Below are positions 23,927 through 48,021 of a stretch of 64,000 nucleotides of DNA, in pieces (position 1 is the first letter of the stretch; each line of letters starts with the position of its first letter). The notes below the pieces were generated by a model. The model had not been told where the DNA came from. It saw only the letters and a list, made by a program, of their open reading frames with translations, and made no database searches. The stretch covers positions 1 through 64,000 of the forward strand of contig JADFYO010000013.1 in NCBI GenBank assembly GCA_015233015.1, given 5' to 3'. Source of the DNA: Nitrospirota bacterium (GTDB lineage: Bacteria > Nitrospirota > Thermodesulfovibrionia > Thermodesulfovibrionales > Magnetobacteriaceae). The position numbers were made by a program, and so were the translations under genes.

Positions 23927-26302
23927 GTGTCAATGAAAACCTTACAAAACAGAATACTGGCAAGCTTTCTTCCTCTGATTATAATTCCGTCTTTAATTAT
24001 AATGACAGTCAGCCTTATAATAATGGAAAGGCAGATTAGTGAATGTTTCGAATCGTTACTCACAAATGGCATCAGGGGAGTTGATGAGGAATTTGAGTCC
24101 ATAGAGCATCGATTTCTTAACATCGCCCGCTCGATAGCCGATGAAGAGGAAATAGTGAGTATGACCGGACATCAGGATGGAAATGCCCTGTCAGGCGTAA
24201 TGCCAAGAATAAAAACACTGTTAGGGGCAAGCAGCATCGGGGTCTTCAACCTGGAAGGAACAATGCTTGCCGGCGGGAACTTCAATGTCCCATCTGAACG
24301 TAAAAAAGACATGTATAAAGATATACTAGCACATGTACTGAAAGGAAAAGATGTAGCCGCCATTATGAAATCGGAAAAAGGAGTTGGGTTTACGGCCTTT
24401 ACTCAAATCAGGGCTAAAGAAAAACCGGTTGGAGTTTTAATGGTTTTCCGGCTTTTGGATTATGACTTATTGGTTAAAATGAAGGCTGCATTTGGGATAG
24501 ACATTATTGTTTATAACGGCGCTCTCCCGCAGGTAACTACTATTACTAAATCCAGCGTATTTACAGACCCTAATCTCAAGGCAGTGATTGCTGAGGTGAA
24601 TACCCGGCAAAGGCAAATCACCAAAGAGATGAAGCTTGGCGGGTTAGACTATTATGCCGCGGTCAAACCTATTAAGTATGAGATGGAGCAAATAGGAGTC
24701 ATGGTAGTTGCCGCATCGGGTGACAAGACATACAGAGAGAGGATGATACTAAAGATAGCCGCTCTGCCGTCTATCGCTTTCCTGTTATTAATTGCCTTCT
24801 ATATATCCCGCCGCGTGTCCTTAAAAATCGTAGGGCCTATTAAGCAATTGTGCAATGTTACGCGGGAGATCTCCGAAGGGTCTCTTTCCGTTATCGTGGA
24901 TATTAAATCAGGGGATGAGGTCGGCGTTTTAGCCGATTCTTTTAACAGGATGATCAACGAGATTAGAAAACACGAGGACAACCTCAACGAGCTTGTTGAG
25001 GAGAAAACCAGTGAATTAACAACTACTAACGCGGAATTGTTAAACGAGATGATAGAACGCAAGCGGGTGCAGGCGCAAAAAGATCTAAGCATGAATCTTC
25101 TGCAGAATATCGCCGACAATGTCCCCGGGGCGATATACCAGTTCAAATTGAATCTGGATGGAAGCTGTTGTTTTCCCTACGCCAGCGCAGCCTTCTATGA
25201 TATATACCGGATACACCCCGAAGAGGTCAGAGAAGATGCCTCAGTGGTATTCACCCGCCTTTACCCGGACTACTACTACGGCTTCAATTCTTCTATCCGG
25301 AAATCGGTCACAGACTGGAAACGATGGCAGCACGAAGGCCGACTAGTACTTGGCGACGGCACGATACGCTGGGTGCTTGGCGGCGCAATGCCGAAACAGG
25401 AACCGGACGGCTCAGTCACATGGCAAGGGTTCGTCATGGATGTCACCGAGCGCAAACTGATTGAAGAGCAATTAGTGGAGTTAAACAGGACACTGGGGCA
25501 GCGCGTAAAAGACGGAATCAACGAAATCGTATATCAGAAGCAACTTCTCGTTCAGCAATCGAAAATGGCGGCGATGGGCGAGATGCTAGGGCTGATAGCG
25601 CATCAGTGGAGGCAGCCTCTGAATGCCATAGGATTAAACGTGCAGGATTTGAAGGACGCGTATGACTTCGGAGAGCTTGATGCGAGAGCCATAGATAATA
25701 TTGTCGATGTAACAATGAACCAGGTAAACTTTATGTCTAAGACTATAGACGATTTCAGGAACTTTTTCAAGCCGTCAAAGACGAAACAACGGTTCGACGT
25801 GAAAAAGAACATAGAGGAAATCATCTCGATGTTTAGTCATGTGTTCAATAAAAACAATGTGGATGTTTCAATAATGGCTGCCGATGAAATATTATTATTT
25901 ACAGAGGGATACCCGAATGAGTTCAAGCAGGTGGTTCTCAACATCCTGAATAACGCAAAAGACGCCATCGTTTCTAACAGAGACAACGCGGCCCCGCCGC
26001 CACAAAAGCGCGGGAAGATAGAGATAACCATAGGAAATAATGAAGGCAGAGATAAAGTGATAATTAAAATACGGGACAGCGGCGGCGGCATTCCTGAAAC
26101 AATAATCGGCAAGATCTTAGAACCATATTATACGACAAAGGGAAAGGAAGGCACGGGACTTGGGCTGCATATGTCAAAAACAATAGTGGAGACGAATATG
26201 GGTGGCACCCTGTCCGTCAGAAATATTATGGAAGCGCCTGAAGGCGCTGAGTTTACAATAACTTTAGCAGTAACAGGCGGCGGCGATGAATTCACAGGAT
26301 AA
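23927..26302 (+). CDS. Membrane sensor histidine kinase (Cache-HAMP-PAS-HisKA-HATPase)
   Basis: The 791-residue protein has TM1 at about 10-33, an extracytoplasmic sensor domain of about 240 residues, TM2 near 275-295, a HAMP domain, a coiled coil, one PAS domain (about 400-515), and a kinase core. The phospho-accepting H559 is in AHQWRQPLN; the ATP-binding domain shows NILNNAKDA, DSGGGIP and GTGLGL. Start is GTG 23927 or ATG 23933. The last 71 bases are repeated at 30663-30733, and the epimerase gene start lies in the second copy. No response regulator is adjacent. Confidence 0.9.
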   Translation: MSMKTLQNRILASFLPLIIIPSLIIMTVSLIIMERQISECFESLLTNGIRGVDEEFESIEHRFLNIARSIADEEEIVSMTGHQDGNALSGVMPRIKTLLGASSIGVFNLEGTMLAGGNFNVPSERKKDMYKDILAHVLKGKDVAAIMKSEKGVGFTAFTQIRAKEKPVGVLMVFRLLDYDLLVKMKAAFGIDIIVYNGALPQVTTITKSSVFTDPNLKAVIAEVNTRQRQITKEMKLGGLDYYAAVKPIKYEMEQIGVMVVAASGDKTYRERMILKIAALPSIAFLLLIAFYISRRVSLKIVGPIKQLCNVTREISEGSLSVIVDIKSGDEVGVLADSFNRMINEIRKHEDNLNELVEEKTSELTTTNAELLNEMIERKRVQAQKDLSMNLLQNIADNVPGAIYQFKLNLDGSCCFPYASAAFYDIYRIHPEEVREDASVVFTRLYPDYYYGFNSSIRKSVTDWKRWQHEGRLVLGDGTIRWVLGGAMPKQEPDGSVTWQGFVMDVTERKLIEEQLVELNRTLGQRVKDGINEIVYQKQLLVQQSKMAAMGEMLGLIAHQWRQPLNAIGLNVQDLKDAYDFGELDARAIDNIVDVTMNQVNFMSKTIDDFRNFFKPSKTKQRFDVKKNIEEIISMFSHVFNKNNVDVSIMAADEILLFTEGYPNEFKQVVLNILNNAKDAIVSNRDNAAPPPQKRGKIEITIGNNEGRDKVIIKIRDSGGGIPETIIGKILEPYYTTKGKEGTGLGLHMSKTIVETNMGGTLSVRNIMEAPEGAEFTITLAVTGGGDEFTG

Positions 26303-26303
26303 G
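26233..26303 (+). repeat. 71-bp direct repeat, left copy
   Basis: This is the end of the kinase gene (AGCGCCTGAAGGCGCTGAGT to GGATAAG). It matches 30663-30733 with four mismatches in 71. Between the two copies lies the SiaABC/HD-GYP operon. Confidence 0.92.
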
Positions 26304-26514: not shown

Positions 26515-28743
26515 TTGCGCTTTATGAAGATCAGGAATCTACTTATGCTTATAACAACTGTGAGCATCATAGTATCGATGGTGACTATCACATCGGTTGC
26601 GGTGTTTACAATTAAGAAGCAAGGGCAGGATGATATAAAGAAGTACGAGGCGGAAGAGCTGGCGAAAGTAAGGAATAACCTCAAGGATCTGGCGTACATG
26701 GCCTACGGTATCATAGAGAAGAACGACAAGACCGCTCATGACAAGAAGTTCCTCGAAAAGTACTACGGTCTGCGGCTGAAAGACGCTACAAGCATCGTCG
26801 AGCCGATTCTCCGGGCTAATGCCGCAAGGGTGAAAGAGGGGAAAGCGACTCTCTCTCAGGCGAAAAAGGATGCTGTCGATGCTATAAGCAGCATAAGGTA
26901 TAATAACGGTACCGGATATTTCTGGATTACCGACACGGCACTTCCCTATCCCCGCATGATTATGCACCCGACTTTGCCGGAGCTGGACGGCAAAGTCCTG
27001 AGCGACCCAAAATTCGACTGTGCCCTGGGCAAAAAGCAGAACCTTTTTCAGGCGATGGCAGAGGTTACACAGGCAAAAGGAGAAGGCTTCATTGACTATT
27101 TATGGCCGAAACCAACAAAAGATGGCCTGAGCGCTCAGGTGCCAAAACTTTCTTACGTAAAACTTTTCAGGGAATGGGATATTATTATCGGCACCGGTAT
27201 TTATGTCGATGACGCAGTTCAGGATGCCATGGAAACAAGCAAGAAAGACATAAGCAAAATAAGGTTTGATGGCGGGACCGGATATTTCTGGCTCAACGAC
27301 ACAACACTTCCCTACCCCCGTATGATTATGCACCCGATTTTGCCGGAGCTGGATGGGAAAGTTCTGAACGACCCGATATTCAACTGCGCCATGGGAAAAG
27401 AGAAGAACCTTTTTCAGGCGATGGCAGAGGCATGTGATAATAACGAGGGTGAAGGTTTTGTGGATTATAAATGGCCGAAACCTACAAAAGATGGCCCGAG
27501 CGAGCCTGTCCGGAAACTGTCCTTTGTAAAAGTATACAGGCCGTGGGGATGGATTATAGGTAATGGCGTTTATATCGACAACATAGAGGAAGAAACCGCC
27601 CGGAAGGCCATGTCGATTAATGACCAGGTCAGCAAGGTCATAAGAAAGTTCCTTGTGATCTCGGTAATCGTGCTTATCGCCGGTATAACAACAGCCATCC
27701 TTTTTGCGAAAAGTCTTACCGTGCCAATAAACAAGCTTGCCGACTCAATCAGAAAGATAAATAAAGAGGGCATATACTCGGGCGAATCTCCGGTGGCGGG
27801 CACTGTGGAAACCAAAGAACTGGGACAGATATTCAACAGTATGCTCACAGAACTAAGGAGAGGCGACGCAACAAACAAGGCTCTTCTGAATGAGTTGGCG
27901 GAGCATAACCGAACACTGGAGCAGAAGGTTGCCGAAAGAACGTCTGAGCTTCAGGCCACGCTTGCAGAGGTCAGGGCGGCCAACAATAAGATCCTCAAGA
28001 GCATCAGTTATGCAAAGATGATCCAGAATTCGCTTCTGCCGGATAGCGATATGCTTAAGGCGAACCTGCCGAACAGCCTGTTTTTATGGATGCCTAAGGA
28101 CATCGTCGGCGGAGACATATACTTTACCGAGATTCTCGATGACCATTATCTCGTCGCCATCGTGGACTGCACCGGCCACGGGGTGCCGGGCGCTTTTATG
28201 ACGATGATTGCATCGTCAACCCTGAAAAAAATAATCAACGAAGACCTCTGCAATGACCCCGGAGAGATACTGAAGAGGCTGAACCATGCGGTAAAATCAC
28301 TTTTATTAACCAACTCCGAACACGAACTCTTCGATGTCGGCATGGATGCCGCGGTATGTCTGATAAAACCACGAGAGAAGACATTGGAATTCTCCGGGGC
28401 TAATCTGCCGCTTTACTGCATCGGTAAAGACAAATTGGAGGTACTCAAAGGCGACAGGCAGAGCATAGGATACAAGGACTCGCCTTCAAATATCACATTC
28501 ACGACCGTAAGGATTGCGATATCAGACGATATGTCGTTTTATCTTTCGACCGACGGCTATATAGACCAGACAGGAGGCGATAACGGGTTCTCATTCGGCA
28601 AAAGGCGTTTCAGACTGCTTTTGCATGAGATATGCGGTAGCCCCTTCAGCGCCCAGCAGGAAATGCTTCTTAAAGCCTTCAACGAACATATCGGCGATAA
28701 CGAACGTCTGGATGATGTAACAGTTATAGGGTTTAGTATATAA
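26515..28743 (+). CDS. siaA: SiaA-like phosphatase (double Cache, HAMP, PP2C/SpoIIE)
   Basis: The 742-residue protein has TM1 (about 9-32), two tandem Cache_2-type sensor units (about 126-236 and 247-357, both with GTGYFW and LPYPRMIMHP), TM2 (about 380-400), HAMP, a coiled coil and a C-terminal PP2C-like phosphatase (about 495-742). Metal-binding acidic motifs are DIVGGDIY, VDCTGHGVPGA and DDVTVI. In Pseudomonas SiaA dephosphorylates SiaC in response to a signal. Start is TTG 26515 or ATG 26524. The next two genes are SiaB-like and SiaC-like, supporting the name. Confidence 0.85.
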   Translation: MRFMKIRNLLMLITTVSIIVSMVTITSVAVFTIKKQGQDDIKKYEAEELAKVRNNLKDLAYMAYGIIEKNDKTAHDKKFLEKYYGLRLKDATSIVEPILRANAARVKEGKATLSQAKKDAVDAISSIRYNNGTGYFWITDTALPYPRMIMHPTLPELDGKVLSDPKFDCALGKKQNLFQAMAEVTQAKGEGFIDYLWPKPTKDGLSAQVPKLSYVKLFREWDIIIGTGIYVDDAVQDAMETSKKDISKIRFDGGTGYFWLNDTTLPYPRMIMHPILPELDGKVLNDPIFNCAMGKEKNLFQAMAEACDNNEGEGFVDYKWPKPTKDGPSEPVRKLSFVKVYRPWGWIIGNGVYIDNIEEETARKAMSINDQVSKVIRKFLVISVIVLIAGITTAILFAKSLTVPINKLADSIRKINKEGIYSGESPVAGTVETKELGQIFNSMLTELRRGDATNKALLNELAEHNRTLEQKVAERTSELQATLAEVRAANNKILKSISYAKMIQNSLLPDSDMLKANLPNSLFLWMPKDIVGGDIYFTEILDDHYLVAIVDCTGHGVPGAFMTMIASSTLKKIINEDLCNDPGEILKRLNHAVKSLLLTNSEHELFDVGMDAAVCLIKPREKTLEFSGANLPLYCIGKDKLEVLKGDRQSIGYKDSPSNITFTTVRIAISDDMSFYLSTDGYIDQTGGDNGFSFGKRRFRLLLHEICGSPFSAQQEMLLKAFNEHIGDNERLDDVTVIGFSI

Positions 28744-28771
28744 TAGAAACGACTCAATAGGAGATGATACC

Positions 28772-29326
28772 ATGATTAAACTTCTGGATTTGAAAAAATA
28801 CCTCGATGACAAGGGTATTTTTCTGTACTTCAACGGGCGGATATCACATGATTTGCTGGTTCAACTGGGCGACACCCTGAAACAGAAGCTGAATAGGGAA
28901 GAGGTGGAATCGCAAACGGTTCTGAAAGTCTTTTCCATGTTTGTAGAGCAGATGCAGAACGTAGTGCGGTATTCCGTTTCCAGCGAAACAAACTGCCCCA
29001 CTTCTCCGGCAGATTTTCAGGTGGGCGTTGTGACAGTAGGATATGACGGCAATTATTATTTCGTGGCCAGCGGCAACAAGGTGGCTACAGCCGAGGTCAG
29101 CAGGATAAGGGAAAAACTTGAAAAGATCAGCTCGATGGATAAAGACCAGCTTAAGGCATATTATAAGGAAATGAGAAAGTCAGAGACCCCTGAGGACTCC
29201 GTCGGCGCTGGCCTGGGGTTTATAGAAATGGCCAGAAAAGCCGACAGACCGCTGGAATTCGAATTTTCCGAATTAAATGACAGGGAATCTTTCTTCTCAC
29301 TAATAACTCTAATAAGCAGGGGGTGA
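28772..29326 (+). CDS. siaB: SiaB-like protein kinase
   Basis: The 184-residue protein is of the SiaB family (DUF6272), an anti-sigma-factor-like GHKL kinase. The N-box-like stretch EQMQNVVRYS (about 57-66) and the glycine-rich GAGLGFIEMARKA near 148-160 fit its ATP site. In the known system it phosphorylates SiaC, opposing SiaA. AGGAG precedes the ATG. The gene follows siaA by 28 bp and precedes siaC by 3 bp. Confidence 0.85.
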   Translation: MIKLLDLKKYLDDKGIFLYFNGRISHDLLVQLGDTLKQKLNREEVESQTVLKVFSMFVEQMQNVVRYSVSSETNCPTSPADFQVGVVTVGYDGNYYFVASGNKVATAEVSRIREKLEKISSMDKDQLKAYYKEMRKSETPEDSVGAGLGFIEMARKADRPLEFEFSELNDRESFFSLITLISRG

Positions 29327-29329
29327 ACT

Positions 29330-29719
29330 ATGAAGGGACTTGCTATAGATGCTACAAAGAGCACTCCGTGGATTTATTTCGATCAGGAAAATAACATTCT
29401 GGAGATCAACGGAGAATCATATCCTGAAAATACATCGGAATTTTACGAACCTTTGTTTAAGTGGCTCGATATGCGCCTCGGCGAACTGCATGAGGAGAGC
29501 TTTACCATAAATATTGCCCTGAAATACTTCAACAGCAGTTCTTCGAAGATACTGATGAACCTGTTTGAAAGACTTGAAAAATATTCCGAAAGGGGTAAAA
29601 ATATCGCCGTGAACTGGATTTATGATAAAGCGGATGAAAGCTGCCTCGAATATGGAGAGGAGTTCAAAGAAGACCTGACAACTCTGAAATTCAATCTTGT
29701 GGAGAAGGCAGGAGGTTAA
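29330..29719 (+). CDS. siaC: SiaC-like partner-switch protein (DUF1987)
   Basis: The 129-residue protein belongs to the SiaC/DUF1987 family. The core LKYFNSSSSKILMNLF (about 64-79) corresponds to the conserved segment containing the phosphorylated Thr of SiaC; here serines occupy the site (S69-S72). When unphosphorylated, Pseudomonas SiaC binds and activates the diguanylate cyclase SiaD. In this operon the next gene encodes an HD-GYP protein, so that is the likely partner. Confidence 0.85.
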   Translation: MKGLAIDATKSTPWIYFDQENNILEINGESYPENTSEFYEPLFKWLDMRLGELHEESFTINIALKYFNSSSSKILMNLFERLEKYSERGKNIAVNWIYDKADESCLEYGEEFKEDLTTLKFNLVEKAGG

Positions 29720-29721
29720 AA

Positions 29722-30576
29722 GTGGCTGAAGACGCAATGTTTAGCGAAGAGGAGCAGGTGCTCATGCAGGCCGCGAAAGTGGCCGGGGATGAGCGTTATA
29801 AAGATTCGCCACTGCGTGACGAGTTCATGTATTTGGCTAACCAGTATAAGAGATTGCTGAGACAGGTCAGGCGGGTGATCAGCTTGAGCGATAAGCAGCA
29901 AAGCAGCCTGAGCTTCGAACTGGAGCTGGCCTTTGAAAGTTTTATCCGCACCCTGGTCACCACCATTGACGCTAAGCACAAATTCACAGCCGGACACTCG
30001 GCGCGCGTTACAGAATATGTTCTGTTTCTCGGCAACAAAATGGGCTTCAGCTTTGAAGACATGGAAGTGCTCAAATATGCAGGATTACTCCACGATATTG
30101 GTAAAATCGGCATTCCCGACGCAGTGCTGACTAAAAACGGACCGTTTTCGCCCGAGGAACGCCTGATAATGAATGGTCACCCGGCCCTGACGGGGCGGAT
30201 ATTGTCCGGCATCCGTCTGCCCCGTAATTTGCGTGAGGTTCCCCATATGGCGGAATGCCACCACGAGAAGATGGACGGTACCGGTTATCCTTACGGCCTG
30301 AAAGGAGAGGATATTCCGTTTTTCTCCAGAATCCTCGCCGTAGGCGATGTGTTCGACGCACTGACCTCACGTCGCGATTATCCAAAATACATCGATGGAA
30401 AAACTCTGAGCGCTGAGCCGATGTCCTTATATATGGCATTTGCAATCCTTGCGAAGGACCAGAACATTCATTTTGATCCAACCGTAGTGTCTGTAGTCCT
30501 TAATCACCGGACAGAATTTGAAACCATGTATCAATATCTGCACGCCAACCAGGCCGGCTGGTGGCTTGAGAGTTAG
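29722..30576 (+). CDS. HD-GYP domain c-di-GMP phosphodiesterase with N-terminal stalk
   Basis: The 284-residue protein starts at GTG, set by AGGAGG 7 nt upstream. Residues 1-75 form a helical stalk (YKRLLRQVRRVISLSDKQQ), followed by an HD-GYP domain with complete metal and substrate motifs: GHSARV (91-96), HDIGKIGIPD (124-133), NGHPALTGRI and HHEKMDGTGYP (180-190). These residues predict hydrolysis of c-di-GMP in the cytoplasm. No membrane segment or receiver domain is present. It is the last gene of the SiaABC operon, 2 bp after siaC, in the place of the usual SiaD cyclase. Confidence 0.9.
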   Translation: MAEDAMFSEEEQVLMQAAKVAGDERYKDSPLRDEFMYLANQYKRLLRQVRRVISLSDKQQSSLSFELELAFESFIRTLVTTIDAKHKFTAGHSARVTEYVLFLGNKMGFSFEDMEVLKYAGLLHDIGKIGIPDAVLTKNGPFSPEERLIMNGHPALTGRILSGIRLPRNLREVPHMAECHHEKMDGTGYPYGLKGEDIPFFSRILAVGDVFDALTSRRDYPKYIDGKTLSAEPMSLYMAFAILAKDQNIHFDPTVVSVVLNHRTEFETMYQYLHANQAGWWLES

Positions 30577-30662: not shown

Positions 30663-30733
30663 AGCGTCTGAAGGCGCTGAGTTTACAATAACTTTAGCAT
30701 TAACAGGCGGTGGCGATGAATTTACAGGATAAG
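30663..30733 (+). repeat. 71-bp direct repeat, right copy
   Basis: This is a copy of the kinase gene end at 26233-26303. It supplies the ribosome-binding region and first codons of the epimerase gene. Confidence 0.92.
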
Positions 30734-41978: not shown

Positions 41979-44969
41979 ATGAGCTTAAGAAAGAAATTCA
42001 TAACTATCGTATTAGCAGTATCCATTATACCTATATCCATAAGCGGGTTTGTCATCTATCACCACTGCAAGGTAAGTTTGATGAAATCTCTGGAGAATCA
42101 GCTGGAGGCATCGGCGGCTATGCAGGAGTCCAAAATAAATATATTATTCGACAGATTTTCCGACGATGTCAGGATGATTGCAAACAGGCCAAATCTGAAA
42201 TTGCAGTTCGACTTGTACGCCAGAAACAAGGATGTTCAATCGAGGGGCAATCTTCAGATGATATTGAACGAACTTATGGGCACTGTCCCGATATTTCATG
42301 AAATCTCGCTCACCGGTATTAACGGCGAGATTGTTTATTCGACTGATAACTCAAAAACAGGAAAGAAAATCGAGGATGAGAAGTTTTTGGCAAAGGCTTT
42401 GAACGGGTGCGGGATTATAGATACAATTGCGGGTAATGACAAGATGCCCGACGTCTGGTATGCCTGTCCGATGCTCATAGGGGACAAACCGGCAGGCGTT
42501 GTCAGCGCCATATTAGATGGAAAATTCATCACCGGCATTACAAGCGATTACACGGGGTTAGGCAAGACAGGCGAGACAGTGCTGGCAAAAAGAGACGAAA
42601 CCGGCGGCGCGTTATTTATAGTCCCTCTGCGCCACAACAAACAAGCCGCCTTTGTTCAGAAAATATCTAAAGATAACGCAAGCGTTCTTATAACTCAGGC
42701 ATTGCTTAGAAGGCAGCGCGTATTTACTTCTTATGTGGATTATCGTGGGGTAGAGGTAATAGGCATCACGCGTTATATAGAGAGGGCGGACTGGGGAGTT
42801 GTCGTTAAGGTTGATAAGTCGGAGTTTATGGAGCCTCTTGTCAGACTTAGAAACTTTTTAATCATAAGTTATCTCCTGCTGACAGGCTTTATACTGCTTA
42901 CTCTGACCTGGCTCGTTAAACATATAACCGGGCCGCTCACGCGTCTGACAGACATTGCCGCGCAAATTTCGGAAGGAGACATATCTCACAGGCTCAGCCT
43001 TCACTCCAATGACGAGATAGGGTTTTTATCCAGGACGTTTAACCATATGCTCGATACAATCAATGTTATACATACACGGTTAGAAGATAAATACACAGAG
43101 CTTAACGCCATAATCAATATGCTGCCCGGTGTTTTTTTCATATCCGACAAGGAAGGGACTATCCTCATGTGCAACGAAAATCTGATGAAAGCAACGGGAT
43201 ACCCGTCCGAAGAGATAAGAATGATGTCCGTCTTCGATCTTTTCACAGAAGATGCCCGCGCGATATTTCAGAAGGCACTTGCAGACGGTAAGGCAGATCA
43301 GGAGCTTTCGTTATTGACTAAGGACAAAATTAAAATTCCATACTATTTCATATTTTCGTTAATCCGGCACGACCACGATGAAGAGGTTGACATAGTATCG
43401 ATAGGCGTAGATATTACCGAACGCGTCCTGATGGAAAACGAACTTGTGGAATACCGGCAGCACCTGAAGACGCTTGTTGATAAAAAGACCTTAGAAATAA
43501 TTGAGATGAATGAGCAGCTGAGGGATGAAATAGGAAAACGTATCGCTAATGAAAACAAATTAAAAGATAAAGAGGATATGCTGCGCCTTATTACGGACTC
43601 TCTGCCTGCACTGATTGCTTATATAGACGCCGAATCCCGCTACCGCTTCGCCAACAAACTCTATGAGGACTGGTTTGGGTATTCCCGTACAGAGATTATA
43701 GGCAAGCGCAGGCAGGAAATCCTGGGGATGGACTATCACTATGCCACAATAGATAATATGATAACCGCGTTATCTGGACATAAGGTGCAATTTGACAACT
43801 CTATAACGCTGAAAGACGGCACCAGCAAGATTATAGCCGTCGAATATATCCCCCACTTCGACGAAAGGGATGGAAATGTCGACGGCGTATTTGCCCTGGC
43901 ACACGATATTACGGAACTGAAACATACCGAACTGGCACTAAAGGAAAGCGAAGACAGATTTCGCCGAATATTCGAGGACAGCCCGTTGGGGATAGCCGTA
44001 ACGAATAAGGACGACTATTTCATCAGGGTCAACAACACCCTGTGCCAGATGCTGGGATATACCGAAGATGAATTCAAAACGTTCACATATCATGAACTAA
44101 CCCACGAAGCCCACCTCGACAAGCACCATGATCTCTCAAAGCAGGTAAGAGACGCCCTTATACCCACATATAAAATGGAGAAACAATACGTCAGGAAAGA
44201 TGGAGAGGCCATTTGGGTAAACGTTACAGCCAAATTCATAAGGGATGAGTGCGGCGACCCCGTTTATGGGATTGCAATGGTGGAGAATATTTCCCATCGC
44301 AAGGAAATGGAAAGGGAACTTACTATATATACTGAGCAGCTTGAGACTGCGGTTGCGGAACGCACAAAGGACCTGATGAACAGCCTCGATAAGCTTCGCG
44401 CCAATACGAACGCGATAATAGAGGCTATGTGCGCCTCCGTAGAGGTCAGAGACCCTTATACAGCCGGACATCAGCGCAGGGTAAGCGAGCTGTCCCGCGC
44501 CATTGCGGAGGAAATGGGTCTGTCCGAAGAGCAGAAAGAAGGCGTGATGGTGTCGTCCTCTATACATGATTTGGGCAAGATATACGTGCCGTCTGAGATA
44601 TTAAGCAGACCGGGCAAGTTGAGGTCTGCCGAGTTTAATATTATCAAAGAACACTCGCAGACCGGTTACGATATATTAAAAGGCATAGAGTTTTCGCAGC
44701 CGATTGCAGAGATTGTATTGCAGCATCACGAGCGAATGGACGGTTCAGGGTATCCTCAGGGCCTCAAGGGAGAGGCAATACTGTTGGAAGCGAGGATAAT
44801 CTGTGTTGCCGATGTGGTTGAGGCCATGGCCAACCACAGGCCGTATCGTCCTGCGCTGGGGATAGATAAAGCCATTGGCGAGATAACAAAAAACAGTGGT
44901 ATTATATATGACAGCGATGTAGTTGCGGCATGTGTCGCGGTGTTTGAGAAAGGTTTTAGATTTAAATAG
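41979..44969 (+). CDS. Membrane HD-GYP sensor protein (Cache, HAMP, PAS, HD-GYP)
   Basis: The 996-residue protein has TM1 (about 8-27), a Cache-type sensor domain (about 35-290), TM2 (about 295-316), HAMP, three PAS domains (about 380-490, 530-645 and 655-775), and a C-terminal HD-GYP domain. Catalytic motifs are GHQRRV, HDLGKIYVP, EHSQTGYDIL and HHERMDGSGYPQGLKG. It would degrade c-di-GMP in response to an external signal. AGGAGG lies 14 nt before the ATG. It is divergent from the binding-protein/kinase pair and ends at a palindromic repeat. Confidence 0.92.
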   Translation: MSLRKKFITIVLAVSIIPISISGFVIYHHCKVSLMKSLENQLEASAAMQESKINILFDRFSDDVRMIANRPNLKLQFDLYARNKDVQSRGNLQMILNELMGTVPIFHEISLTGINGEIVYSTDNSKTGKKIEDEKFLAKALNGCGIIDTIAGNDKMPDVWYACPMLIGDKPAGVVSAILDGKFITGITSDYTGLGKTGETVLAKRDETGGALFIVPLRHNKQAAFVQKISKDNASVLITQALLRRQRVFTSYVDYRGVEVIGITRYIERADWGVVVKVDKSEFMEPLVRLRNFLIISYLLLTGFILLTLTWLVKHITGPLTRLTDIAAQISEGDISHRLSLHSNDEIGFLSRTFNHMLDTINVIHTRLEDKYTELNAIINMLPGVFFISDKEGTILMCNENLMKATGYPSEEIRMMSVFDLFTEDARAIFQKALADGKADQELSLLTKDKIKIPYYFIFSLIRHDHDEEVDIVSIGVDITERVLMENELVEYRQHLKTLVDKKTLEIIEMNEQLRDEIGKRIANENKLKDKEDMLRLITDSLPALIAYIDAESRYRFANKLYEDWFGYSRTEIIGKRRQEILGMDYHYATIDNMITALSGHKVQFDNSITLKDGTSKIIAVEYIPHFDERDGNVDGVFALAHDITELKHTELALKESEDRFRRIFEDSPLGIAVTNKDDYFIRVNNTLCQMLGYTEDEFKTFTYHELTHEAHLDKHHDLSKQVRDALIPTYKMEKQYVRKDGEAIWVNVTAKFIRDECGDPVYGIAMVENISHRKEMERELTIYTEQLETAVAERTKDLMNSLDKLRANTNAIIEAMCASVEVRDPYTAGHQRRVSELSRAIAEEMGLSEEQKEGVMVSSSIHDLGKIYVPSEILSRPGKLRSAEFNIIKEHSQTGYDILKGIEFSQPIAEIVLQHHERMDGSGYPQGLKGEAILLEARIICVADVVEAMANHRPYRPALGIDKAIGEITKNSGIIYDSDVVAACVAVFEKGFRFK

Positions 44970-45322: not shown

Positions 45323-46789
45323 ATGTCAGAAGAGAACTCAGATAAGCTTTACACAGGCTGTTATATTGCAGTTGTCCTCGCGGCGGTTACTCTAAGGATA
45401 TATAAGGCGTACTATACAGGCATAATTTATGACGAGGCCCTTACGTATTTCAGATTTGCGCGGGATTTCAACAGTGCTGTTTCAAACTATTCGACGACAA
45501 ACAATCACCTGTTGAACTCGGTTTTTATATATCTGTCGGTCAAGGTCATGGGACAAACCGGCATGTTCATTGGTGTGCCGGCCATAAGGCTTCCAGCGGT
45601 GTTTTTTGGCATTGTTTATGTGGCGTCGGTTGCGGTTACTATAGAGGCCGCGTTAAGAAACAAAACGATAAAGATACTCGCACTTGTGGCCTGCCTCTTT
45701 AATTACTTCATATTCGATTTAAGCATTCTGGCAAGGGGATATGCTATAGCCCTTGGAGCCGTCTATATGGAGCTGATGCTAATTGTCTTATATCCACGAT
45801 ACAGGGACAGGTCGATGGTCATCCTGTTCAGCGCCCTGAATTTTATCGCGTTAGGCGCGATGTTGACCAGTTTATACACTATTGTGCCTCTGAATATTGC
45901 CTTCCTTGCCGTGATATACCATACTAACGCGCGTCAAGTATCTGACAAGGCATTTGAGAAGGCCTTTGAAATGGGAAGCATGATTATGTGCTACTCTTCT
46001 TTTGCGCTTGCCGTGCTGTATTATAAAGTTATCATAACAATCGTCTCGGCGTCCGCAAAGAACAGTGAGATAAACGAAGCCCCGGTAACTATCCTGAAAT
46101 CGTTGATAACAGAGGGGCTTTTTTCAAAATGGCGATTTCAGGTGCCACATCTGCCTGATATTATGCTGTCGGCAATGCTGTGTCTTGCCGTACTGTTTAT
46201 ATTAAATATAGTAGTAAATAAAAAGACTGTAACACCGGCGGCTATTATTATTATGTCCGTGCTGGCGACGTCTTTTCCTCTGGCTTACATAGCAAATAAG
46301 ACGGGGGGATTGTCGCTTGGCTTTACGCGTAACCATGTGTTCTGGCTGCCCCTGATTGTCTTAACTGCCGGCATAATTATGGAAGGGGCGTTGGCCTTTT
46401 TAGTGAAGGCCGGAGTTGGTGTTTTGACCTCGTCGATTATTTTAATCGCGGTTATAATGACAGCAGGGCCTCTCATGTCATTACACGCCGTAACCACATA
46501 TGACTGGAAGCCGCAGAGCGTTGTCGGCCCGCTGCTCAGGGAATTAAGAAAAACAGACGCCGCGAGGCACTGGAAGGTTGGATTTTCCGATAAACTGGAG
46601 TTTAATCTTTATCCATACTACTTTTACAACAATGAAGTATATAGGATAAACGATTCAGACGTCTCAGTGTATCATATTTCCGAAAAAAATCTATCCGCCG
46701 TAAGTGCGTACAAATATGATCTGTTCAAAGAATTCGATTGTGTCGTGGTGCTTGCCGGACCGGCTCAACCGGCCGGAAGGCCTCGATAG
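45323..46789 (+). CDS. GT39-like membrane glycosyltransferase without TPRs
   Basis: The 488-residue protein has about 11 membrane helices. The first loop has GIIYDEALTYF (D37, E38), followed by NNHLLNS, which is the arrangement of ArnT/PMT-type GT-C enzymes. No TPR tail is present. It would use a polyprenyl-phosphate sugar donor at the periplasmic face. The -10-like TAGAAT lies 9 nt before the ATG with no Shine-Dalgarno sequence. Its substrate is unknown; LPS or protein are both possible. Confidence 0.75.
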   Translation: MSEENSDKLYTGCYIAVVLAAVTLRIYKAYYTGIIYDEALTYFRFARDFNSAVSNYSTTNNHLLNSVFIYLSVKVMGQTGMFIGVPAIRLPAVFFGIVYVASVAVTIEAALRNKTIKILALVACLFNYFIFDLSILARGYAIALGAVYMELMLIVLYPRYRDRSMVILFSALNFIALGAMLTSLYTIVPLNIAFLAVIYHTNARQVSDKAFEKAFEMGSMIMCYSSFALAVLYYKVIITIVSASAKNSEINEAPVTILKSLITEGLFSKWRFQVPHLPDIMLSAMLCLAVLFILNIVVNKKTVTPAAIIIMSVLATSFPLAYIANKTGGLSLGFTRNHVFWLPLIVLTAGIIMEGALAFLVKAGVGVLTSSIILIAVIMTAGPLMSLHAVTTYDWKPQSVVGPLLRELRKTDAARHWKVGFSDKLEFNLYPYYFYNNEVYRINDSDVSVYHISEKNLSAVSAYKYDLFKEFDCVVVLAGPAQPAGRPR

Positions 46790-46827
46790 GTATGGAATTA
46801 TCGTTGGCAGGCAAGGTAATAAGATAT

Positions 46828-47037
46828 TTAACCGCCGGCAGGCTGTTTGTGAAGATGCTGCTCAATTGCCTCGGCAATTGCCGCCAACGATCCCTTGACC
46901 GTTTTCCCCTGGGATACCACACCAACATCGCTGCACTCAACATTAAATCCTGCCGTTGACATGTCCGTACGTATTGTCACGACAAAAGCCTTTCCATCGA
47001 CTGTAACCGTGCTTGTTCCGCATATTGCCATGACCAT
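46828..47037 (-). CDS. HicB-like small protein, uncertain
   Basis: The 69-residue reading frame from MVMAICGTSTVTV has the order of a HicB-type antitoxin fold: two strands (AFVVTIRT, FNVECSDV), then GVVSQGKTVKGSLAAIAEAIEQHL, like the GCxxQGxTxEEAlxxixEAI motif. No HicA toxin is next to it. It lies between the GT39-like gene and lpxC. It could be a decayed orphan antitoxin. Confidence 0.4.
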   Translation of the reverse strand: MVMAICGTSTVTVDGKAFVVTIRTDMSTAGFNVECSDVGVVSQGKTVKGSLAAIAEAIEQHLHKQPAGG

Positions 47038-47127
47038 AGTATATATGAAATACAGGTGATAAATCAATAGTGTCAATAGTTATATTCAGATAGATTGCAG
47101 GCGCGAAGATTAACAGGTCGTGGGCGG

Positions 47128-48021
47128 CTATGAATAGCTGTAGCTGAATGCCGGATAAGGTGCTTTCTCTACCTGATCGCTTACGACTTCCCAGCAGTCG
47201 GAACACGCCAGAAGCTTGTTTATGAACTTTACGTTCATCTTATGACCGGACTTGTCCGCCACAATATGCCCTTCTATGGGAAGGCCAACCAGAGAGAAAT
47301 CCCCGATGCTGTCGAGGATTTTATGCCTGACGCACTCGTCCTTAAACCTAAGCCCGGAGTTGTTGACAATGGAGGTTTCGCTGAAAATGACGGCATTGTC
47401 GAGCGAGCCGCCTTTGGCAAGTCCGTTAGCCCTGTAATACTCGACATCTTTGAGAAATCCAAACGTCCTTGCCGGGGCAATTTCTTTAAGAAACGAACCC
47501 CTGTCAAGGTCAAAGGACATTAACTGCTCGCCAAGAAAGTGATTTTTGAAGAATAATCTGAAGGTTATCTTTCTTCCATCATAGGGATATGCCGCCACTT
47601 TGCCCTGGTCGTCTTCGAGGAAGACCGGCTGCAGGATTTTTATATAAGGCATTACCTTTTTTTGTCTTTTTATGCCGGCGCCCAAAATCAGCTGCGTGAT
47701 TTCAATGGCGCTTCCGTCAAGTATGGGAATCTCAGGGCCTTCAACCTCAATTGTCAGATTGGTGATGCCCGTAGCCGAAAGCACTGCTAAGAGATGTTCG
47801 ACTGTACGCACCTTCATTCTGTCGTTGCCAATGGTAGTAGCGTATGTGGTATCGACAACGGTGCTTATGTTGGTTGACATGGATGATTTCTTGCATGGCC
47901 TGTAAAATACGATACCCGTATCCACAGGCGCCGGATGAAGCGTTACCTTGCAGTACGCGCCGGTGTGAAGCCCGACACCCTGAAAGTTTATACGATCTTT
48001 TATAGTCCGTTGTGATCTCAT
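47128..48021 (-). CDS. lpxC: UDP-3-O-acyl-N-acetylglucosamine deacetylase
   Basis: LpxC catalyses the committed zinc-dependent step of lipid A synthesis. Counting from the longest reading, the zinc ligands are H79 in RTVEHLL, H236 and D240 in RHKILDSIGD; H263 in SGHKMN is the catalytic acid, and E78 the general base. ARTFGF is also conserved. The full length is about 297 residues from ATG 48021; TTG 48030 is three codons upstream. It shows the organism makes an LPS outer membrane. Confidence 0.97.
   Translation of the reverse strand: MRSQRTIKDRINFQGVGLHTGAYCKVTLHPAPVDTGIVFYRPCKKSSMSTNISTVVDTTYATTIGNDRMKVRTVEHLLAVLSATGITNLTIEVEGPEIPILDGSAIEITQLILGAGIKRQKKVMPYIKILQPVFLEDDQGKVAAYPYDGRKITFRLFFKNHFLGEQLMSFDLDRGSFLKEIAPARTFGFLKDVEYYRANGLAKGGSLDNAVIFSETSIVNNSGLRFKDECVRHKILDSIGDFSLVGLPIEGHIVADKSGHKMNVKFINKLLACSDCWEVVSDQVEKAPYPAFSYSYS

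Follow-up and report, generated by a model that had tools for sequence, protein, structure and literature searches.

An HD-GYP phosphodiesterase as the predicted target of a SiaABC-type partner switch in a Nitrospirota bacterium

What does a SiaABC partner switch control when the gene behind siaC does not encode the diguanylate cyclase SiaD? The question is raised by an operon of four genes on the + strand (positions 26524-30576; intergenic gaps of 28, 3 and 2 bp) of the window, a stretch of 64,000 nucleotides from contig JADFYO010000013.1 (assembly GCA_015233015.1) of a Nitrospirota bacterium of the family Magnetobacteriaceae. A previous sequence-only reading had assigned the first three genes to SiaA (double Cache/PP2C), SiaB and SiaC, and had proposed that SiaC acts on the stalk of an HD-GYP protein encoded by the fourth gene, and not on a GGDEF protein. 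The family matches of the three products confirmed the assignments, and the proposal gained support from stalk homology, a contact motif and the co-occurrence of the stalk with SiaC. With good confidence, a SiaABC switch acting through a docked HD-GYP phosphodiesterase is the best explanation of the operon, whose features are the following:

26524..28743, + strand: siaA-like gene, double Cache sensor with HAMP and PP2C (SpoIIE) phosphatase domains (Pfam)
28772..29326, + strand: siaB-like gene, GHKL-type SiaC kinase (NF038262, DUF6272)
29330..29719, + strand: siaC-like gene, STAS-like phosphoprotein (PF09345 SiaC, 9.1e-44)
29534..29536, + strand: Ser69 codon, aligned with the phosphorylated Thr68 of Pseudomonas aeruginosa SiaC (alignments)
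29722..30576, + strand: fourth gene, stalk-HD-GYP protein of 284 aa, predicted cyclic dinucleotide phosphodiesterase (HD_5)
29734..29976, + strand: N-terminal putative SiaC-docking stalk, residues ~5-85 (stalk profiles, model)
29887..29901, + strand: SDKQQ putative docking motif, residues 56-60, aligned with SiaD S82-D83-R84-Y85-Q86 (alignments)
29953..30486, + strand: HD-GYP catalytic domain (H92, H124-D125, H153, H180-H181, D209, GYP)

The fourth protein, which has an HD_5 domain and no GGDEF domain, cannot be called a SiaD, yet SiaC is predicted to dock on it in the same manner. A stalk hidden Markov model built from 12 GGDEF proteins encoded beside siaC genes, and containing no HD-GYP sequence, was searched against 3,739 open reading frames (ORFs) of siaC loci. 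This GGDEF-only profile matched the window HD-GYP protein at 5.4e-14; all members of the stalk group scored at 8e-7 or better, and the best non-member ORF at 0.38. When a mixed profile of 21 stalks was searched against the PDB, the sole significant match was SiaD (7e6g, 1.8e-6), on both SiaC-binding repeats. Profiles were needed for this comparison because a single-sequence phmmer search of the PDB with the window stalk retrieved SiaD only at an E-value of 0.9, amid designed helices. Judged by the profiles, the N-terminus of the HD-GYP protein and the SiaC-binding stalk of SiaD are homologous. In the AlphaFold2 model (mean predicted local distance difference test score of 89.9), residues 32-85 form a single continuous helix leading into the HD-GYP domain, which bears out the helical stalk described in the sequence-only reading.

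The homology extends to residues that make contact in the solved complex. According to PMC8457831, the source for this complex throughout, T68 of SiaC bonds with S82 and Q86 of SiaD, the neighbouring SiaC residues N67 and S69 make contacts with Q86 and D83, and SiaC no longer binds SiaD when T68 is phosphorylated. Ser56, Asp57 and Gln60 of the window stalk are identical to S82, D83 and Q86 of SiaD, and one Tyr and one Asp are invariant across the stalk alignment. On the SiaC side, the equivalents of N67, S69, M75, E110 and D114 are conserved, and Glu takes the place of D79. The phospho-site of P. aeruginosa SiaC is T68 (PMC7647112), and the sequence-only reading had noted Ser instead of Thr at this position. 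The observation holds, but 110 of the 113 SiaC sequences in our sample carry Ser, so that this residue does not mark the window operon, and its use as a hallmark was dropped.

The coordinates and Pfam also confirmed that the HD-GYP gene lies 2 bp behind siaC (siaC stop at 29719, GTG start at 29722 preceded by AGGAGG) and that, apart from HD_5 (1.9e-36), the Pfam search of its product reveals no domain, neither receiver, membrane nor GGDEF. The ligands of the H..HD..H..HH..D series are complete and the GYP motif is intact, in agreement with the ligand-plus-GYP definition of the family (PMC8177086). The earlier claim of all metal motifs stands for these ligands and fails for the third metal, whose ligand in PmGH, Glu185, is replaced by Phe; by the criterion given in PMC8177086, a two-metal (dinuclear) site is therefore expected. 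The best Foldseek match of the model is PmGH (4mcw, 1.3e-11). The catalytic fold and metal motif are those of PmGH, PA4781 and V-cGAP3, but the SiaC-docking stalk profile finds no match in any of the three. Regarding the substrate, a Ser at the guanine-reading position marks the Hypr enzymes that make 3'3'-cyclic GMP-AMP (cGAMP) (PMC6456294), and none of the GGDEF domains of this genome in which that position is readable has it, which favours cyclic di-GMP (c-di-GMP) as the likelier substrate of the HD-GYP protein.

The remaining products fit the known input cassette. In Pfam, the siaA product matched dCache_2 (3.1e-70), HAMP and SpoIIE/PP2C (5.5e-21); its PP2C domain aligned with the solved SiaA phosphatase (6k4e) at 3.9e-48, and the motifs GGD, DCTGHG, STDG and DD are all present. 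The SiaA equivalog model NF038263 gave 283 bits, below its cut-off of 700, and covered only the C-terminal half. These matches point to a protein of the same kind as SiaA, with a different sensor. Its more likely start is the ATG at 26524, and the frame is also open from TTG at 26515. The siaB product scored 191.6 bits with NF038262 (SiaB_fam_kinase, cut-off 85) and 9.3e-44 with DUF6272, and contains the N-box E59QMQN. The siaC product matched chains of 6kko, 6kkp and 6k4f at 4e-18.

A GGDEF partner encoded elsewhere, which the sequence-only reading had named as contrary to its proposal, was searched for in the whole genome, where domain searches count 26 GGDEF domains, 27 HD_5 matches and a single SiaC. 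Stalk profile A2 matched the window HD-GYP protein at 1.2e-24, with the next best protein at 0.35, and none of the 26 GGDEF domains carries a detectable stalk. Because the only stalk in the genome adjoins the only siaC gene, no stalk-bearing GGDEF protein competes for this SiaC, while a partner without a recognisable stalk elsewhere in the genome is possible.

The association of stalk and SiaC was also observed in other genomes. Within a phylum sample of 396 genomes, SiaC was present in 7 and the stalk in 5, all among those 7 (0 of the 389 others), and each of the seven stalk genes immediately follows a siaC gene; as all these genomes come from a single family, the counts are not independent. 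A stalk-only search in the class of a Desulfobacterales locus (L052) found the stalk in 29 of 291 genomes. This search, which made no use of SiaC, yielded 27 new stalk loci; siaC is present in the 2-3 kb read at 20 of them, and siaB alone at 2 others. The sequence-only reading had suggested looking for siaABC followed by an HD-GYP gene in other genomes. The four-gene unit is kept in three Nitrospirota genomes with different neighbours (the window, L012 and L018), and the combination of stalk and HD-GYP output is found in these and in L052; the variant is rare yet not unique.

HD-GYP is one of several outputs behind this stalk. Among siaC loci across bacteria, stalks precede GGDEF, HD-GYP, class III cyclase (Guanylate_cyc), histidine kinase (simple or hybrid), SpoIIE PP2C and Pkinase domains, as well as a CheA-like Hpt-HATPase-CheX protein. 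On a SiaB plus SiaC tree of 71 systems, a quick tree with weak deep branches, the output class changes at least 16 times, against a minimum of 5. The clearest exchange is seen in a Riflebacteria locus (L036), where SiaA, SiaB and SiaC are 78, 78 and 71% identical to those of the window, and the fourth protein resembles that of the window (43% identity) only over a stalk stretch of 69 residues, after which it continues as a class III cyclase. These data suggest that the SiaC stalk is probably a general docking module, with SiaABC as an interchangeable phospho-input cassette for at least seven enzyme classes; the window would then represent the erasing form, in which c-di-GMP would fall in response to the same signal.

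Other arrangements of the module were observed. On contig C122 of genome G400 (~45500-47460; L105 and L108), a single siaB-siaC pair has a stalk-GGDEF gene on one side and a stalk-histidine kinase gene on the other, possibly a two-output switch from one SiaC. Stalk, class III cyclase and GGDEF domains occur in one chain at 6476-7975 of L054 and 1483-2949 of L118, and these proteins possibly make two messengers under one SiaC. In L078 (3508-4701), the gene behind siaC joins the stalk to a Ser/Thr kinase of the Hanks type, which might form a kinase cascade downstream of the partner switch. An Arcobacter HD-GYP protein encoded behind siaC (L093, 3981-4790) was rejected as a further member: its N-terminus is not matched by the stalk profile (E-value of 9.8) and shares only an SDKRQ motif, and it may represent an independent recruitment. 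A Helicobacteraceae kinase behind siaC (L090, 3536-4489) has a motif of the same SDRQQ/SDKRQ type in a helix unmatched by the stalk profile; these motifs are possible minimal or independent docking motifs.

We propose that the target of this SiaABC switch would be the cytoplasmic HD-GYP phosphodiesterase. By homology, SiaB would phosphorylate SiaC at Ser69, and the membrane sensor-phosphatase SiaA would strip the phosphate once a signal reaches its double Cache domain in the periplasm. SiaC in the unphosphorylated state would then dock, through S-D-x-x-Q, on the helical stalk of the dimeric HD-GYP protein, and since there would be one site per chain, a 2:2 complex is expected, in comparison with the 2:4 complex seen with SiaD. 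Docking would set the geometry of the coiled coil and hence the activity of the HD-GYP domain, most likely switching it on, so that c-di-GMP falls. SiaC docking is described to convert an inactive SiaD pentamer into an active dimer (PMC8457831). Most of the stalk-sharing outputs appear to be enzymes that act in dimeric form or whose activity is modulated by dimerisation, and the outputs may be exchangeable because the dock sets the state of the coiled coil.

Several observations weigh against this mechanism. The SiaD contact residues beyond the core motif are only partly kept in the window stalk (in the motif alignment, Gln for R74, Ser for R80 and Phe for D91), the third-metal ligand is lost, and the nearest PDB entry by sequence is V-cGAP3, a 3'3'-cGAMP phosphodiesterase. 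In addition, an HD-GYP enzyme does not necessarily need a partner for its activity, and docking might therefore inhibit. Unphosphorylated SiaC would in that case hold the HD-GYP dimer inactive, and activation of SiaA would raise c-di-GMP, spared from breakdown, as it does in P. aeruginosa; stalk homology is silent on the sign, and from general knowledge of the family the free enzyme may be active by default. We regard this opposite sign as possible but rather unlikely. Docking activates in the one solved case (PMC8457831), and the GGDEF, class III cyclase and histidine kinase outputs need dimers, which would fit docking as a dimer-forming activator; once docking is granted, activation of hydrolysis is more likely than its inhibition. 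The resemblance to V-cGAP3, which has a similar segment (YTAGHS/FTAGHS) and lacks the third-metal Glu, raises the question of whether the substrate is 3'3'-cGAMP or pGpG instead of c-di-GMP, particularly as some HD-GYP enzymes prefer cGAMP (PMC8177086). This seems improbable, given that the best structural match, PmGH, is a c-di-GMP enzyme and that the readable GGDEF domains lack the Hypr Ser, although cGAMP synthases of other kinds were not searched for.

The docking itself could be questioned in two ways. SiaC might control another target, with the HD-GYP gene merely co-transcribed: two genomes of the same bacterial family, G382 and G172 (loci L014 and L015), have siaABC operons and no detectable stalk protein, so a recognisable stalk is not required of every SiaC partner. 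For the window this is quite improbable, since the HD-GYP protein bears the docking motif and is the sole stalk protein of its genome, the four-gene unit is intact in each of three different genomic settings, and siaC lies within ~1.5 kb at 20 of the 27 stalk loci found independently of it. The stalk resemblance might also be a chance likeness of two coiled coils, which are prone to false matches; the single-sequence match is indeed weak. Very little speaks for such an accident: with the GGDEF-only profile, the gap in E-value between members and ~3,700 other ORFs exceeds five orders of magnitude, no other HD-GYP or GGDEF protein of the genome scores with the stalk profile, and the invariant Tyr and Asp would exceed the needs of a generic coiled coil.

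The closest known system is SiaABCD of P. aeruginosa (PMC8457831, PMC7647112 and PMC7278518). It shares with the window the membrane sensor PP2C, the GHKL kinase SiaB, a SiaC phospho-site at the start of helix 2 and a fourth gene with a helical SiaC-binding stalk, whereas in the window the output is HD-GYP and not GGDEF, the stalk has a single SDxxQ motif where SiaD has two, SiaC carries Ser in place of Thr, and the sensor of SiaA is of the dCache_2 type. In the HptB-HsbR-HsbA-HsbD and BgrSTUWV-BgrR systems, as cited in PMC8457831, a STAS-type protein likewise gates a c-di-GMP enzyme, but these systems control diguanylate cyclases through classical STAS proteins, and no HD-GYP target is given there. 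The same paper, the only one among those searchable that names DUF1987, suggests that these proteins modulate adjacent proteins in general, and a 2022 survey gives SiaABCD as a case in which PP2C/kinase signalling merges with that by c-di-GMP. In the accessible text of searchable papers, subscription papers lying outside this scope, SiaC docking is described only as the activator of one Pseudomonas diguanylate cyclase, and outputs of the HD-GYP, class III cyclase or kinase type are not described for DUF1987 proteins. By title and abstract, nothing closer was found for partner switching paired with HD-GYP, and a prior mention in subscription papers is possible. The window joins this docking stalk to an enzyme whose predicted effect is the reverse, and relatives carry it on cyclases of the cAMP/cGMP type and on several kinases. 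If this is true, SiaABC would be a modular input that can be connected to the synthesis or the breakdown of c-di-GMP, or to different pathways. The stalk would give candidate targets for many unannotated siaABC operons and a natural design for switchable enzymes, and it advises caution against annotating every siaABC operon as biofilm-promoting.

A second HD-GYP domain lies at 44439-44921 of the window, in an open frame of about 1019 aa, and is not matched by the stalk profile. An upstream Cache histidine kinase gene (23927-26302) was considered as a member of the system and rejected, as no such gene stands beside the operon in L012 or L018, where the neighbours differ. The operon is flanked by a direct repeat of 71 bp (94%, family D3):

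26233..26303, + strand: left copy, corresponding to the 3' end of the upstream kinase gene
30663..30733, + strand: right copy, overlapping the start of an epimerase gene

No mobile element was recognised. Four congeners have the epimerase gene, at 82-88% identity, with no such operon next to it. The operon was likely inserted as a mobile or recombined block.

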